A stretch of 64,000 nt of DNA from Blattamonas nauphoetae. Taxonomy: Eukaryota > Preaxostyla > Oxymonadida. This document shows positions 13,721-21,236 of the stretch, in pieces. A program made the position numbers and the translations under genes. Within the stretch, counting starts at the first letter, position 1. Every line of letters begins with the position of its first letter. The notes under the pieces are model-generated. The model saw nothing but the letters and a program-made list of their open reading frames with translations, had not been told where the DNA came from and did not search any database. The stretch spans positions 186,001 to 250,000 of the forward strand of contig JARBJD010000025.1 of the NCBI GenBank assembly GCA_033064195.1. Reading direction: 5' to 3'.

Positions 13721-16700
13721 CTAGTTCGATACAGTTGGAAGGCCGTGAACCCGTAAGGGCAGCCACCAACTCTCTGTGAGTGTGGGTACTCCAGTTCCAA
13801 TCAGGATTGGAGCAGAGTAGTAGACGTCTGCAATTGTCGAAGTGAGAGACCAACCCACATGGCTATTGACTACTTCCAGCGGAACCTTGGCCACACGCCT
13901 GAGGTGGCTCACCGCTGCATGCTTGACCGTGTATGGTCCGTAAGAACCAGGGACACCGATCTCTTTCAGCACACTTTTTAGAATGGACGCAATGGCCGGC
14001 ATCTTCAGTGGAACGCCTTTCCTGAAATCATACCATATCTTGCAATTCGCAATGTCTGTGTCAACCGACTCTGCAATGACTCGCTCGATGTTTCTCTTAT
14101 GTGCGATCAATGCTCGAAAGGCTGAGAATGATTCATCCCCTTCGTCTCGAACAAATCTGATGTCGTCCTGCAATTGATTCTGTTTTGCCCTGATTGTCAC
14201 CGTCGCAAATGACGTTGGAATGAAGTCCGATGATTCATGGAAGTCAACGTCCCTCCATCGAAGGTTGACAATCTCTGCACGGCGACAGCACGTCGTTGCA
14301 AGGAGGAGAGACAACGCTCTCATCTGCTGGACCTCTGGATCTTCGCTGGCTAATTCATTTGTTTTCTGTGCCCAGTTCAGGAGCAGATCAATATTCCACA
14401 TTACGGTGTAGTGACGTTTTGACTTGTTCTTTGGGTGACTCTTTGCAAGAACCTGTCTGAAAGAATTCAGGTGTGACCTGTCGTTGTGCAGTGTTGGGTG
14501 GAAGAGGCCTAATGATCTGACGACTTTCGGAACTGCTGTGTGAGGGAGTTGGTTCGGAGGTGGGAACCGCTCGGCAAGATCTGCGACGAAACTGCAAAGA
14601 AGTTGTTCAATGTTTGTTGACTTGGCAACAATGAAGGAAACAGAATGATTGAACTTCTCGCAATATTGTTTGAATAACTTCCAAGCCCGCATCCAAGGGC
14701 CCTTGTGTTTGTATGCGTCTTCTTCCACATTTCGGACATTCATTGGGATTCTTCCCTCATCACACAGACTTCTGAAGAAGTCTCTCCCCTCCAGGTTCTC
14801 TCCCCCCACCAGAGATGCTCGTACATTCCCTGGGGGGAGGCTCGCTTCCGATGTCGGATCCGTATTCACTGTCATCGTGGAGTATGGTCCGAGAACGATG
14901 CTGTCCAACTCCACCAGAGATAGGAGAGGAGACCAAGTTTGATTGCTCCAGTCCGGAGTGATGAGGACTCCCTTCTTCACTGGTTCCTCCCTCAGCTTCT
15001 TCAGAACTCGTGGAATGAGGAGAATCGGAGGATGACAGAGAGGTTGTATCATCCCTGTCCAGTTGACGACGAGGGCATTCACGCCAGCTGAGTGCTCTTC
15101 CGGTCTCAGCGAGAAGTATTTGTGACATTGTCTGTTCTGATCTGTGGCGAAGAGATCGATCAGAGGAACGTAAGACCATCGATCTTTCAATACCTGAAGC
15201 GCTAGAGGGGTCAGCATGAACTCCGCAAGAGGGTGGAGCCTTGACAGAGCATCCGCTACTGTATTCTTCACTCCCGCAATGTGTTGGATGTCGGCCAGAA
15301 TCATCCCACTCGATCTGATTGTTTGAAGAGTTTGATTCGTGATCTGAACAAGGGATGAGGTGGCTCTCTGCTTCTTCACATTTTGAACGGCCGTCGTATT
15401 GTCGCTGTGAACTGTGATTGCCCGCACATCCTTCTGCTTGAGGAGCATGGTCGCTTTGATTAGGGAGAAACGAATCGCTGCCGTTTCTTTCCAATTGGAC
15501 GTCTGAACCTTCTGCTGTTCGGTCCAGACTCCATGGAAGAGAGTTGTCTCCTCCCCAATCGTGAGCACACATCCCCAGCCCCATGGGCTCGCATCTGTGG
15601 TGAGAGATGCTGTGGGTGTGACTTGACGGAAGGAGTGAGGAGTGTTCCGTTCTATCGCTGAAGCCCAGAAGGTGATCTCTCCCAGGTGGAGACGGTTGAG
15701 CTGGACCTTCGCTTCCCATCCACCCTGCCTGGCACCCATGTCTTTCCATTGGTTTAATTTCTGCAGGTTGAGGCTCGCAGCTGGAATGACCGTTCGAAGG
15801 AAGTTGAGACGACCGATCAGAGCTGCCAAGTCCCTCACTCTGATTGATTCTCGATGTAGGATGATTGCCTTGGTCATCCGCAATTGATGGAGGAGTTTGG
15901 AGCGTCGAGACGAGGTGATTGAGATCGATTGTGTAACCGCGTCGATCGACCATCCCAAGAATTCGATTGATTGGGACGGGACTGTCTGACACTTGCTGAC
16001 GGCAATCTGAAAACCCAAGTTTGTCAGGGTTTCCATCGCTCTTTCTGTATTGACCCTTGCCGACTCCATCGTTTGCGAGATGAGGAGAATGTCGTCTAGA
16101 TAGAAGATTATCGGAATCTGGAGAATGTGGCGGAGATGTTTCACAGCACAACGCATAATCTTCGTAAACGTTCGCGGAGCAGTCGACAACCCGAACGGCA
16201 TTCCCACGTATTGATAAAACTGCTTCTCGAACTCGAAGCAGAGATACTTCCTGAGTTGTGGAGGCACCAAGACATGTTGATATGCATTCTTCAGGTCTAT
16301 ACTCGTCATCCATTCTCCTCCATTGATGAAAGAGGTCGCTGTTTTTACATCTTCCATTTTGAAATGCTCGACCTTCAGTTCCTTGTTGAGTGCCGTCGCA
16401 TTCAAGATCTTCCGCCATCTCCCCCCCGTTTTCGGGACAAGGAAGGTATGAAGAGAGAGGGTGACTTCCGTTTGTGGGACAGGAACAACCACACCCGTCT
16501 GGATCTCTTCCAACAAGAGTGAATGAAAGCCGCCGTCTCCTCCACATTGCCCTTGAATGGAGGAGACCACGGGAGTTCTTGCAACTTCTGCGGGGACTCT
16601 GGACTGATCCACTCCCACATTGCCCCTGCTAACACCCTCTCCTTCCCGCCTATCTCCTCCCATCTCGCCAAGGCATCCCTCAGCCTCTCCGGAACTGGTC

Positions 16701-17050
16701 GACTGGATGGTTGTGTTAATGTCGTTTGGGGTAGAATCTGTTGCGTTGTCCCTTGGGTTGAGTCGGGAGGCGGACTGACCCCCCTTGTTGAGAGAAAGAA
16801 TTTTGACTAAACTGTTGTTGTGGATTATTGGACTGAGTGAACCCTGGAGATTGATTGGGAGGTAGAAGCAGATCATTGGGGGCTGTCGCTGGTTGAGTGA
16901 GCCCCAAAGTGAAAGCGACCTGTCCCGCATTGACCGGGGTAACGTATCGGCCAAGATGGCTGCAGGCTGCAGAGTCCGCAGCATCCAAGATACCCTTCGT
17001 GATAATTGGCAGGATGTGTTTTGGCGGCTCTCCATGTGTGACCATATCAT
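13721..17050 (-). CDS. DIRS polyprotein: reverse transcriptase, RNase H, tyrosine recombinase
   Basis: The frame has 1109 codons. The reverse transcriptase has WMTSIDLKNAYQ, GMPFGLSTAPRTF and the catalytic FYLDDILLIS near residue 317. RNase H follows with TTDASPWGWG (about 484), NWKETAA and VHSDNTTAV. The C-terminal part is a tyrosine recombinase with CCRRAEIVNLRW, HAAVSHLRR, HVGW and a YY near the end, so the Arg, His-x-x-Arg and Tyr pattern is present. In this family the reverse transcriptase makes cDNA, RNase H removes the template, and the recombinase inserts a circular copy. No methyltransferase domain was seen. The ORF's first ~170 residues overlap the gag-like frame and may not all be used. 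Confidence 0.88.
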   Translation of the reverse strand: MIWSHMESRQNTSCQLSRRVSWMLRTLQPAAILADTLPRSMRDRSLSLWGSLNQRQPPMICFYLPINLQGSLSPIIHNNSLVKILSLNKGGQSASRLNPRDNATDSTPNDINTTIQSTSSGEAEGCLGEMGGDRREGEGVSRGNVGVDQSRVPAEVARTPVVSSIQGQCGGDGGFHSLLLEEIQTGVVVPVPQTEVTLSLHTFLVPKTGGRWRKILNATALNKELKVEHFKMEDVKTATSFINGGEWMTSIDLKNAYQHVLVPPQLRKYLCFEFEKQFYQYVGMPFGLSTAPRTFTKIMRCAVKHLRHILQIPIIFYLDDILLISQTMESARVNTERAMETLTNLGFQIAVSKCQTVPSQSIEFLGWSIDAVTQSISITSSRRSKLLHQLRMTKAIILHRESIRVRDLAALIGRLNFLRTVIPAASLNLQKLNQWKDMGARQGGWEAKVQLNRLHLGEITFWASAIERNTPHSFRQVTPTASLTTDASPWGWGCVLTIGEETTLFHGVWTEQQKVQTSNWKETAAIRFSLIKATMLLKQKDVRAITVHSDNTTAVQNVKKQRATSSLVQITNQTLQTIRSSGMILADIQHIAGVKNTVADALSRLHPLAEFMLTPLALQVLKDRWSYVPLIDLFATDQNRQCHKYFSLRPEEHSAGVNALVVNWTGMIQPLCHPPILLIPRVLKKLREEPVKKGVLITPDWSNQTWSPLLSLVELDSIVLGPYSTMTVNTDPTSEASLPPGNVRASLVGGENLEGRDFFRSLCDEGRIPMNVRNVEEDAYKHKGPWMRAWKLFKQYCEKFNHSVSFIVAKSTNIEQLLCSFVADLAERFPPPNQLPHTAVPKVVRSLGLFHPTLHNDRSHLNSFRQVLAKSHPKNKSKRHYTVMWNIDLLLNWAQKTNELASEDPEVQQMRALSLLLATTCCRRAEIVNLRWRDVDFHESSDFIPTSFATVTIRAKQNQLQDDIRFVRDEGDESFSAFRALIAHKRNIERVIAESVDTDIANCKIWYDFRKGVPLKMPAIASILKSVLKEIGVPGSYGPYTVKHAAVSHLRRVAKVPLEVVNSHVGWSLTSTIADVYYSAPILIGTGVPTLTESWWLPLRVHGLPTVSN

Positions 17051-17387
17051 AAACTTGGGCCATGTGTCCGATCGACGAAAAGGTTGAATGTGTTGCTGTC
17101 ATCAAGGCCTGATCTTGTATTCTCTGCGCCTCTGTGATTATCGCACGGTTTGCAGCTATTTCTGTGGGAATTCCCAACAAATTCTTGATCTGAGACGTAT
17201 GTGAATTTGTCAAATCACGTTGCTGATTTGGCAATGTTGTTTGCAGCCAATTCTTAGTAAAAGATGGTTCTTGCTTCTTCATATCTTTGAAAAGTTGTTT
17301 CTTTAGCATTTCCTGTCTTTGTCGGCTGGAGATTCCACTTCGTCTGTGTCGCCGATCGCTGCATGATGATCGTGTCGATGTGCTCAA
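16716..17387 (-). CDS. DIRS gag-like protein, main part
   Basis: This is a 223-codon basic protein whose tail is rich in glutamine and asparagine and ends with RFYPKRH. The central segment (ITEAQRIQDQALM, then SSIGHMAQVYDM) resembles the segment EAQRLQDDILKQST and ALLGDIYK of the gag-like protein of the second DIRS-like element at 60 kb. It is probably a nucleic-acid-binding structural protein. It overlaps the start of the polyprotein frame. Confidence 0.65.
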   Translation of the reverse strand: MSTSTRSSCSDRRHRRSGISSRQRQEMLKKQLFKDMKKQEPSFTKNWLQTTLPNQQRDLTNSHTSQIKNLLGIPTEIAANRAIITEAQRIQDQALMTATHSTFSSIGHMAQVYDMVTHGEPPKHILPIITKGILDAADSAACSHLGRYVTPVNAGQVAFTLGLTQPATAPNDLLLPPNQSPGFTQSNNPQQQFSQNSFSQQGGSVRLPTQPKGQRNRFYPKRH

Positions 17388-17911
17388 ATTTCGATGGGAA
17401 CTCTTCTTCCTTTTGTAGTCCTGTGCGATTTCGACTTTCGGTGGCGAAGAATCTCCTTTAGACGCATCAAGTCACCATCTGTCGAAGAAGTGTCTGATAT
17501 CATTGTTGACGACTGATATGACTCTGAGGATTCTTCGAAACTACTGTCAGTGTAATCGTATTTGGATTGTTGTCGTCTATTCCGACGATGCACAGCTATA
17601 CTTCGATTTTTAGATGGTCGATTTCGGTGCCTTCGATCTGTTCTAGTGGGAGAAGTACGTTTCCTCTTGAGGATCTTTTCTTGTGAGTGTATCGGTGAAA
17701 GGGGATCTAGAGCTTGTTCTGCCGTGTTTCCAATTTTAGTCTCGATCGGTCGTGCAATTGACTGAGTTGTTGCTTGCGATATGTATTGAGGAATGGAATT
17801 GATTACTTGTTTCGTAATCTCTGTGATGTAGGCATGGCTGACCGGCACTGACCGGTCAGTTTTCATCGAAAAGTACTGACGGTCACTGACCGGAGAAATG
17901 AGGGAACCCAT
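17384..17911 (-). CDS. DIRS gag-like protein, arginine/serine-rich part
   Basis: The 175-codon frame is rich in Arg, Ser and Thr (RRHRNRPSKNRS, then SSFEESSESYQSS). It directly precedes and overlaps the main gag-like frame. Similar Arg/Ser-rich sequence begins the gag-like protein of the second DIRS-like element. Its 5' side is where the hAT-like element is nested. Confidence 0.5.
   Translation of the reverse strand: MGSLISPVSDRQYFSMKTDRSVPVSHAYITEITKQVINSIPQYISQATTQSIARPIETKIGNTAEQALDPLSPIHSQEKILKRKRTSPTRTDRRHRNRPSKNRSIAVHRRNRRQQSKYDYTDSSFEESSESYQSSTMISDTSSTDGDLMRLKEILRHRKSKSHRTTKGRRVPIEI
17821..17828. repeat. Target duplication, left of the hAT-like element
   Basis: CTGTGATG, repeated directly at 20729-20736. 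Confidence 0.8.
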
Positions 17912-18129
17912 AATCCAGAGTTACCATTTCTCCGAAGTGGATTCATCGAAAACTGCATTTCGCATCGATACCGTGAGTATTCGTGATCTGTCTTCGGATA
18001 TACAACAAATGTATAATTTTCACTTCTATTCATCTCTTGCTAACTTATTCTTGGACATTTTTACCAGTTATAAGTACAAAAGGCAATTATGGGTTGCTCT
18101 TTGACATTTTTCGTATTCTCCAAGTTAAG

Positions 18130-20415
18130 TTAACACTCTTGTTTTCTCACTTCGGCTTTTTGAATCACAGAGTTTTGAAGAGGATTGAAACACTTTATGA
18201 ATGAAGTGGGAACGACGCCACTACTCATTGCTGTCATCACTTCTTTCCTCCCCACTTCGTGCCCACCAAATCGATGGCAGACTTTAGTGGAGGAGCACAC
18301 GAATGAGGAGTACTCTGACGGGGAGGGAGAGCATTCGACTCTTGTTTGGTGGGCGATGGATGGACGAGAGGGGTGTAGGACAGGGCGAGGGGCGAGTGGT
18401 GTGAAGGGTGTTGGGGACGGCGTGGTCAGGAGGGGTGGTGCCTTCAGGACGTCGGGTGCTTCCTGCGGCAGCGAGGGGAGGAAGGGGAGAACGAACGGTG
18501 AATTGGGAGTGGTCTGCTTTGTGGGTGGGGTGCGCTCGGCCTGCGGGAGGACCACCGAGAGTGGTCGATCCAGCACGTGCTGCGAGTCCGCTGATGGATT
18601 GGGATCGACAGCGAGTTTTGTGAAGTGCGGGAGGGTGAGGAGTTATGTTGGGGAGGGCTGTGTCCGTCCAGGCGACCGTGCTGGAGGAGATTGACGGATC
18701 AGAAGAGACAAGCGGGGTTTGGAGGCTGGCTGTGTTCCAAGAACGGTGATCGTAGTGGGAAGCTTCTGCTCGGCTGGCTGAGAACTCGCCCCGTCCGTGC
18801 AGTGCGTAGGAGGGGGAGCAGCCGACGAGCTCCGAAGCACGTCAGCTGCGTCTGTCCTGTCCAGCTGGGGGTGGCGATCAGTGAGGTTGGGAGTGCTGAC
18901 AGACTCGCCTGTGCTCTTCAGGAGAGAGAGGGGGAGCAGCGCGTGGCTGTTGAGGTTCAATCGCTGCAGTCCCAAGGTGTGCTGAGCAGGCTGGGCCGGT
19001 GTCTTCTCCAGCACCGCATCTGATCAATTAGGCGAGAGACAATTGAGCACGAGCTTTGGAAGCGGAGAGTACGGCAGGATCAGCTGTGTTGGGGTGCGGG
19101 GGCAGTCGGGTTGGCAAGCGTGGCTGGCGATGGCGCTGGTTGTGTCGGGGAGAAGAACACGGGCGAAACGCTGGTGCCGACAGGAGGAGTGACAGCAAGC
19201 GACGGTGGAAGGGTCGGAAACAAATAAGAGGACGGCTGGATGCCTTTCATCTGCAGAAGATGGGCGAGCGGGAAGGCGAAGGAAGTTGTTGTGGGGTGCG
19301 TCACGGGCGGCAGGGATGACTGTTTGTCAGTGAAGAAGAAGCTGCCTGTTAGTCCCTCGGGATCATTGGGCGACGACGCAGGTGGGGGTGAACCGTTATT
19401 TCCCCACGACAGTGTCTGTTGGACAGATCCATACGATCGGTACCGAAATAGTGAATATGATAGGGTTTGGGGCAGAGGATAGAAATAGTGTGCAACATCA
19501 AGCGATTTAGTCTGTGGAACGGGCGGGAAAGAGCCAGACTCGGCGGTGATGTGAGGGGGCGTCGGCGGGATGGCACTGAAGTCTTCCTGGGCCATCAAGA
19601 AGCTTTCCCGCTGCGCTTCGAGTTTGTGGCGTTCGCGGTCTTCGCTGAGACGCCGACTGGCTGGAATAAACACTTTGGAGTGCACGGTCAGCGAAGACAG
19701 CGTCGATATGGAAGAAAACGGAGTGGAGACTGAAAGGAGAGGTTGGGAAACATGATGAGAAGCAGAGAGACTTCATAGAACAATGATGAACACACTTTCC
19801 AGATTGGAAGGTTGTTTCGTGTCGATCGACAAGTCTGATGACTCCGTTTTGGCAGAAAGCTGCGAGCCTGCCAGCGGTGGATATACAGTGTCGCGGATCC
19901 TGTGGAAAAACTGCTCGAAGTGACAGACGTCAAAGGGGAGCGAGTACACAAGGAGCGACAGGAGGGTACGCTCCATGTCGTTGAAGATAGTCGGAGCGAT
20001 GCCTCCGAGGTGGGCGTAGTGCTTGTTGAAGAAAAATTGGTCGTCGAGATACTTTGTGGAGACAACGGTGCTGAAGGGAAGATGAAAAGGAGAGGAGATG
20101 AAACGCTGTGAGGAAGAGGGTGTGGGCGTTGTGAGAGGTGAAGCGCACGCCACAGTCTGTCCGGAGACACTCGATGTACAAAAGAGCGATCACGAAGCAG
20201 AAAGGAGAACAGTTCATTCTCAACATCAGTCTGAAAGCACAGAGGCGATCAAGGAAAATGAGGTAAAATGATGAAAAAGTGAAAGGAAAGTGCGTACAAA
20301 TCAAGACATATTGACAGAGATGGTAAGTGCGGTGAGCTTTCGAAGAGCCAGATTGTGTCGGAGTCTTGGCTTGTGCTTGACTACGAGTCACGACGTGAAA
20401 CCTGGTCGAGAGCAT
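18130..20415 (-). CDS. PHO80-type cyclin with Pro/Ser-rich tail (multi-exon)
   Basis: The cyclin box is read from FLDRL, then NCSPFCFVIALLYIECL and FTSHNAHTLFLTA, then after a probable 34-nt GT-AG intron (20071-20104) VVSTKYLDDQFFFNKHYAHL, GGIAPTIFNDMERTLLSLL and FEQFFHRI. This is the classic order of PHO80-like cyclins, which activate cyclin-dependent kinases. I place the start at the ATG at 20415. A second probable intron (about 19723-19788) joins the box to a Pro/Ser/Thr-rich tail read at 19080-19685; further tail-like frames at 18643-19014 and 18130-18576 may be more exons. The N-terminal exon join before FLDRL is unresolved. The gene lies wholly within the hAT-like element. The box frame itself shows no stops. 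Confidence 0.75.
20071..20104 (-). other. Probable 34-nt spliceosomal intron in the cyclin box
   Basis: On the minus strand it begins GTTTCATCTCC and ends CCCTTCAG. Removing it joins HTLFLTA to TVVSTKYLDD, which restores the exact spacing expected between the NxHxLxLTA and KYLDD segments of the cyclin fold. Confidence 0.65.
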
Positions 20416-20810
20416 AAAGTTTCACGATTGCAAAAGCACTCGCTCCGTCAACATCGTGGAGATCTTTTGGGCTGTGTTTGCTGATCGATTCGTGGTATGT
20501 TGGTGAATGTGATGTGTGAGATCAACAATCCCATTGTTGTAGGATATCTCCATGATACGGAAAAAGGAGGCTTCCGATCGGCTTCTGCAAGCAAATCTTG
20601 ATATGTATATCCGCTTGCTCGCCGATTTCTGGATTATAGAAAGTGATTTATAGAAGAGCTGAGATCTGACCCTTTTAATTATTCCAGGGTGACACTGACC
20701 GGCACTTTTGGCCGGTCAGCCATGCCTACTGTGATGAGATCAGCACTAACATTTATCGAAGATAGTGCATCGGATTGGATTAACACTGACTGTTGACTAG
20801 GCTGAGTCAT

Positions 20811-20908: not shown

Positions 20909-21236
20909 ACACATGCGACGATGGGAGGGGTGAGATTGGTGGATGGAAATAGTGTTGCTCATCGTCACGACTGATCGAGGTGGATGAGTGAGGCGACATC
21001 AGCGACGATGGGAGGGGTGAGATTGGTGGATGGAAATAGTGTTGCTCATCGTCACGACTGATCGAGGTGGATGAGTGAGGCGACATCAGCGACGATGGGA
21101 GGGGTGAGATTGGTGGATGGAAATAGTGTTGCTCATCGTCACGACTGATCGAGGTGGATGAGTGAGGCTACACATGCGACGATGGGAGGGTGAGATTGGT
21201 GGATGGAAATAGTGTTGCTCATTGTGATCATTGATC
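20909..21236. repeat. Minisatellite of 86-87-bp units, copy 1, right part
   Basis: About four units lie here. Two unit variants alternate: one starts CTACACATGCGACG and the other CGACATCAGCGACG. Joined to the left part across the DIRS-like element, the array would have six to seven units. Confidence 0.85.

Follow-up and report, generated by a model that had tools for sequence, protein, structure and literature searches.

Transduplication by hAT-type elements, in which a transposon picks up and multiplies host genes, is known from plants, animals and fungi. The available parts of PMC8903248 describe Pack-hAT (Pack-TYPE) elements of maize and rice, in which non-autonomous hAT ends and 8-bp duplications enclose captured host coding DNA. 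Among animal Pack-TIRs, 208 of 370 are associated with hAT, and the portion of PMC8277862 at hand describes hAT-end capture of host DNA that includes multicopy cases with different target duplications. In fungi, hAT elements carrying histone H3 show 8-bp duplications and an amplified housekeeping gene whose copies may be inactivated, and a shortened 2.3-kb form in Pyrenophora keeps the dimerisation domain, according to the accessible sections of PMC6710886 and PMC3538342.

The locus described here resembles all three. It lies in a 64-kb stretch of contig JARBJD010000025.1 (hereafter the window), where positions 17829-20728 hold a complete element of 2,900 bp. The organism, Blattamonas nauphoetae, is an oxymonad, a gut protist without a mitochondrion. 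Because the element combines 8-bp duplications, ends shared with elements of varied interior, transposase-bearing relatives and host cargo, we read it as a Pack-hAT: a non-autonomous DNA transposon of the hAT superfamily that has captured a nearly complete, intron-containing Pho80-type cyclin gene of its host (probability about 0.87). As such, it is a case of transduplication by a hAT-type element.

Table 1. Features of the cyclin element and its target, in window coordinates
Feature	Position	Strand	Basis or remark
Reverse transcriptase-tyrosine recombinase ORF of the DIRS-like retroelement that is the element's target	13721..17098	-	Pfam domains
Left target-site duplication CTGTGATG	17821..17828	.	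single copy at 14 uninterrupted sites
Left terminal inverted repeat TAGGCATGGCTGACCGGC	17829..17846	+	found at 694 sites in the genome (<=2 mismatches)
Whole non-autonomous hAT-type element, 2,900 bp	17829..20728	.	ends, interior comparison, uninterrupted sites
Left terminal module, 107 bp, common to interior types	17829..17935	+	
Exon 4, part of long tail	19111..19729	-	frame lost soon after; TGA 19024-19026
GT-AG intron 3, 66 nt (host 69 nt)	19730..19795	-	host alignment
Exon 3, cyclin box and linker	19796..20070	-	PF08613 and host alignment
GT-AG intron 2, 34 nt (host 34 nt)	20071..20104	-	host alignment
Exon 2, cyclin box	20105..20230	-	PF08613 and host alignment
GT-AG intron 1, 67 nt (host 81 nt)	20231..20297	-	host alignment
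Exon 1 remnant of host gene	20298..20497	-	no in-frame ATG; TAG 20381-20383; host start position 20523-20525 = TTG
Right terminal module, about 86-140 bp, less closely common to interior types	20643..20728	-	
Right terminal inverted repeat	20711..20728	-	
Right target-site duplication CTGTGATG	20729..20736	.	

An earlier note on this DNA had described perfect 18-bp inverted ends, 8-bp repeats on both sides and repeated motifs near the ends, and all three are confirmed. A computed length of 19 nt for the inverted ends arises because one base of each duplication pairs by accident. The two ends contain six occurrences of the motif CTGACCGG or its complement, and the rest of the window has one; such a combination of short terminal inverted repeats with subterminal repeats is hAT-like. 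A tblastn search of the window with the transposase of the family returned nothing at E 0.1, in agreement with the claim that the element holds no transposase, and the two reading frames of the element, when scanned, matched a cyclin and nothing else. About 180 bp from the element, a tandem array comprises 3.6 copies of an 87-bp unit (window 20915-21222).

The element is nested in a DIRS-like retroelement, as had been proposed. The reverse-strand ORF beside it matches RVT_1 (8.8e-25) and Phage_integrase (1.6e-6), each above its cut-off, and RT_RNaseH (5.2e-4) under its cut-off, and the interrupted sequence is that of this retroelement. Joined with a single CTGTGATG, the flanks are found whole in 14 other places in the genome (13 at 100% identity, one at 99%) and at 72% in three further places, and the window's own copy matches as two halves. 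The uninterrupted flanks at 14 places therefore demonstrate an insertion.

The ends belong to a large family. Allowing up to two mismatches, the end sequence occurs at 338 + 356 = 694 sites in the 88.3-Mb, 837-contig genome, against 0 + 2 sites for a control pattern read backwards, and chance inverted ends are therefore excluded. A genome search for the ends had been put forward in the earlier note together with a listing of their contents, which vary among the elements sampled. Our sample comprised 20 regions bounded by terminal inverted repeats, taken from the first 100 places listed, or 21 elements when a nested case on C15 is counted. In that case a cyclin element lies inside another member of the same family, a second nesting; L023, a relative of this host member, lacks the cyclin element there and is not identical at the site. 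Exact 8-bp duplications flank 17 of the 21 sampled pairs; three more (L018, L023 and L028) match over 7 bases as read by eye, and L027 shows no match. Together with the window's element this makes 22 elements, whose common ends enclose interiors of 10 types. Terminal modules of about 107 bp on the left and about 86-140 bp on the right are common to all 10 types, and some pairs of types remain alike for 200-280 bp.

Cyclin is one of two cargos that we could identify. The type represented by L010 and L016 carries a SufD-SufS fragment (SUFBD_core 1.1e-23, Aminotran_5 1e-27) that corresponds to one 1,144-bp stretch of a host gene, C833, at 96.5-96.6% identity, gap-free in L016 and with two gap positions in L010 (dS 0.09, omega 0.20-0.22). 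The host gene has a 1,064-aa frame, longer than the captured piece, and no element ends within the 1,401 bp examined. For a third type (L012, L013, L018 and L028, with a 570-aa frame in L028), a candidate host relative is C190:72753-74714, part of a 1,110-aa frame near which none of the listed ends occurs. Scanning one ORF from each of the seven remaining types gave no Pfam family over its cut-off, and no Pfam transposase family appeared in the 10 ORFs of the sampled elements. Sampled elements of 5-7 kb were considered as transposase carriers and rejected: BLAST shows them to be smaller elements with insertions or replaced parts, and a 419-aa frame at L018:1039-2295, within the portion of L018 that is absent from the shorter L012 and L013, has no Pfam match.

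A candidate transposase is found in elements with nearly the same ends. Searching the genome with the PF05699 profile gave at least 150 scored matches at E <= 1; among the matches listed, we paired these by eye with 22-mers of the left end and recomputed the spacing afterwards. Among them, C96, C215, C259 and C435 have a hAT domain about 2.70 kb inward from the same left end, and C125 is a fifth place with this arrangement. The left end reads TAGGCTTGGCTGACCGGC on C125, C96, C259 and C435, one base change from the end of the cyclin element. This variant occurs 17 times in the genome and stands on both sides of the elements on C96 (5,398 bp), C125 (5,067), C259 (5,067) and C435 (5,052). These transposase elements of 5.05-5.40 kb have identical 8-bp duplications in four of four cases, with left flanks that differ, and their hAT domains lie 2,693-2,706 bp from the left end. 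C215 keeps one variant end; at C215:64135-64195 (L114), a right-end arm is joined to the left end of the transposase copy at the CTGACCGG repeat, an end-to-end rearrangement. In the 5-kb elements (L104/L105 and L110; C125 and C96), the stretch beyond the transposase gene is also shared, over about 1 kb or more, and is possibly another captured gene.

The frame on C125 begins 336 bp inside the left end and encodes 855 aa. Its hAT dimerisation domain scores 21.9 bits against a cut-off of 21.4, a marginal value that counts against the Pack-hAT reading; the database protein of the C215 copy (P0001) scores 18.1 bits, below the cut-off, and a 41%-identical relative (P0004) scores 27.2 bits. DNA, CxxH and TRW motifs in the candidate resemble what we take to be hAT landmarks. 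In the hAT end consensus, base 2 is A and base 5 is G; the element ends have A and C at these two positions. PDB sequences yielded no match to the transposase, the one match of its profile to PDB (E = 2) is meaningless, and its AlphaFold model, with a mean pLDDT of 30, is unusable. A search of NCBIfam returned nothing. To judge from sequence, the 855-aa protein may act as a transposase on these ends. The description of a hAT-type element without a transposase thus holds, given the 8-bp duplications, partners that encode a hAT domain behind nearly the same ends, and no transposase match inside.

The cargo bears the PHO80-type cyclin box that had been reported for it. PF08613 matches the spliced reading at 8.4e-12, within exons 2-3. 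A host relative, the 728-aa BLNAU_23485 on C428, has a PF08613 match of 4.3e-14 and, in a search of PDB sequences, hits yeast PHO80 at 2.8e-8; no element ends (up to 4 mismatches) occur within the 3,625 bp examined around it. The cargo is collinear with this gene, three introns included, over a stretch that runs from near the start codon to within the tail, with identities of 70-92% in exons and 56-72% in introns. The 34-nt GT-AG intron predicted in the earlier note has a 34-nt GT-AG counterpart at the same place in the host relative, and two further introns, of 67 and 66 nt, are predicted beside it. All three stand at host positions, which supports the proposed capture at the DNA level, with genomic DNA as the source. 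Since homology starts near the host start codon, the host promoter was probably left behind at capture. As for a donor locus, a related host gene of shared exon structure exists on C428; it is the nearest one, at about 74% identity and dS 0.78 (dN 0.21, omega 0.27). A search with a 701-bp cyclin piece revealed no immediate donor and no closer source in the genome at its sensitivity.

That search gave 26 matches, 23 of them at 99-100% identity, two at 91% and one at 77%. The 77% match is the C428 host gene, and the remaining 25 are element copies, the window counted once among them. The cyclin-side end is present within 4 mismatches in 24 of the 25. Identical 8-bp flanks occur in all 22 copies that could be tested; the other three are those on C416 and C81, where the end is disrupted or displaced, and one C182 copy, set aside for its far end. 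The copies on C15 and C515 have the same flanks and are apparently a single insertion that was assembled twice, which is why the 22 copies show 21 rather than 22 different duplications. The copy on C836 holds about 3.3 kb of extra DNA. At L051 and C81:14921-20845, a cyclin copy adjoins a SufD-SufS fragment with stops, an arrangement that suggests nested or composite elements with two captured genes.

Does the captured cyclin still work? The earlier note took its unbroken box to suggest that it may, and the copies do not support this. The host start position reads TTG or GTG in all 24 readable copies (one of the 25 is unreadable there), the exon 1 TAG is present in 23 of 25 with TTG in the other two, and the tail-codon TGA of the window recurs in 24 of 24 readable copies. 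A start codon together with a frame open through the whole box, as expected of a functional Pho80-type cyclin gene, was not found. Single-base codon variants among the 25 copies, a count that leaves out gapped codons and codon variants with more than one base difference, comprise 9 synonymous, 36 nonsynonymous and 4 stop changes. This fits neutral drift, for which 24-31% synonymous changes are expected depending on transition bias (P 0.06-0.31), and rejects an omega of 0.27 (P = 2e-6); no current purifying selection was seen among the copies. Given the stops, lost starts and neutral variation, an unbroken box in one copy is no evidence of a working gene, and we infer the captured cyclin to be a passenger pseudogene. 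Public gene models include these copies: among 14 relatives of the host cyclin in the database, 12 (P0007-P0015 and P0017-P0019) are on contigs that, as judged from their length, hold a cyclin element copy, one is the host gene and one a paralogue. Nine of the 12 carry a Cyclin Pfam label, and the cyclin gene-family count of the public gene set is probably inflated.

The same data bear on two roles that the cargo might have. Some copies could encode a working cyclin under selection, either as a shortened protein from an internal ATG or spliced to a promoter and start of the element. In favour of this, the box is constrained relative to the host gene (omega 0.18); amino-acid changes polarised with the paralogue P0016 are balanced, with 17 on the cargo side, 14 on the host side and 64 ambiguous (4, 6 and 15 within the box); and four of the five public models compared begin MLSTRLMLRMN, in an annotation that used RNA-seq hints according to the part of PMC10703272 available. 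Yet the predominance of nonsynonymous variants among copies runs counter to such selection, the host-start ATG is found in 0 of 24 readable copies and most carry the TAG. The models also differ from each other downstream, and in P0007 the match to PF08613 does not begin until profile position 65, against 39 for the host gene, so that this model lacks the beginning of the box. We consider a working cyclin improbable. It is very improbable, too, that the cargo acts as RNA, with putative transcripts of the copies feeding small RNAs that regulate BLNAU_23485, an idea favoured by the number of copies, by the 81-92% identity of exons 1-2 to the host gene and by a mention of small-RNA regulation from captured fragments in the available text of PMC8277862.

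The remaining alternatives concern the origin of the ends and of the cargo. If the ends belonged to another superfamily that makes 8-bp duplications, the hAT gene would itself be a passenger in the 5-kb elements. The marginal Pfam score in this clade and the commonness of passengers in the family agree with this, but the C125 frame starts 336 bp inside the left end, the domain lies at a like distance from that end in four elements, and none of the 10 ORFs of sampled elements matched a Pfam transposase family; we find this scenario hardly credible. For the origin of the cargo, omega for both identified cargos against the host genes is about 0.2-0.27, lower than expected for capture from those very genes followed by neutral drift, which counts against such a capture. 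The cyclin in particular was constrained before it drifted, with a box omega of 0.18 against the host paralogue. Since both cargos, cyclin and SufD-SufS, were under constraint while they diverged from the host genes and drifted only afterwards, they may derive from donors now absent from the genome, whether paralogues since lost by the host or genes brought by element transfer from another oxymonad. We regard this as unlikely.

Under the Pack-hAT reading, the hAT transposase of the 5-kb elements would recognise the two shared terminal modules, left and right, and move the cyclin element by cut-and-paste, generating the 8-bp target duplications. Capture at the DNA level may have occurred by template switching or gap repair. 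The simplest history would be that a long-functional paralogue was captured, lost its start and was recently amplified as a passenger.

Within the literature searched, these findings add the oxymonads to the groups with multicopy capture of genes by hAT-type elements; no earlier report of such capture in this group was found in the open-licence PMC literature. The part of PMC8767320 available describes, for the oxymonad M. exilis, many unclassified repeats that overlap with protein tyrosine kinases; these might reflect the same phenomenon. Public gene sets of Blattamonas nauphoetae count transposon passengers as genes. The family also offers a tractable case of gene pick-up by DNA transposons: ten interior types share their ends, there is a candidate transposase, and two cargos have identified host relatives. 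Should the donors indeed have been lost, the hAT system would serve this mitochondrion-less lineage as an archive of, or a vehicle for, cell-cycle and Fe-S genes.

Several features distinguish this system from its closest counterparts as the available portions of the respective sources present them. Full-length fungal H3 hATs carry transposase and cargo together, whereas the cyclin element has no detectable part of a transposase (PMC6710886, PMC3538342). Unlike the Pack-hAT elements of maize and rice, it resides in an oxymonad, and its cargo is a nearly whole, intron-bearing gene in about 25 copies (PMC8903248). Among animal Pack-TIRs only four multicopy cases are described, whereas here a multicopy cyclin type belongs to a family in which at least 10 interior types share their ends (PMC8277862).
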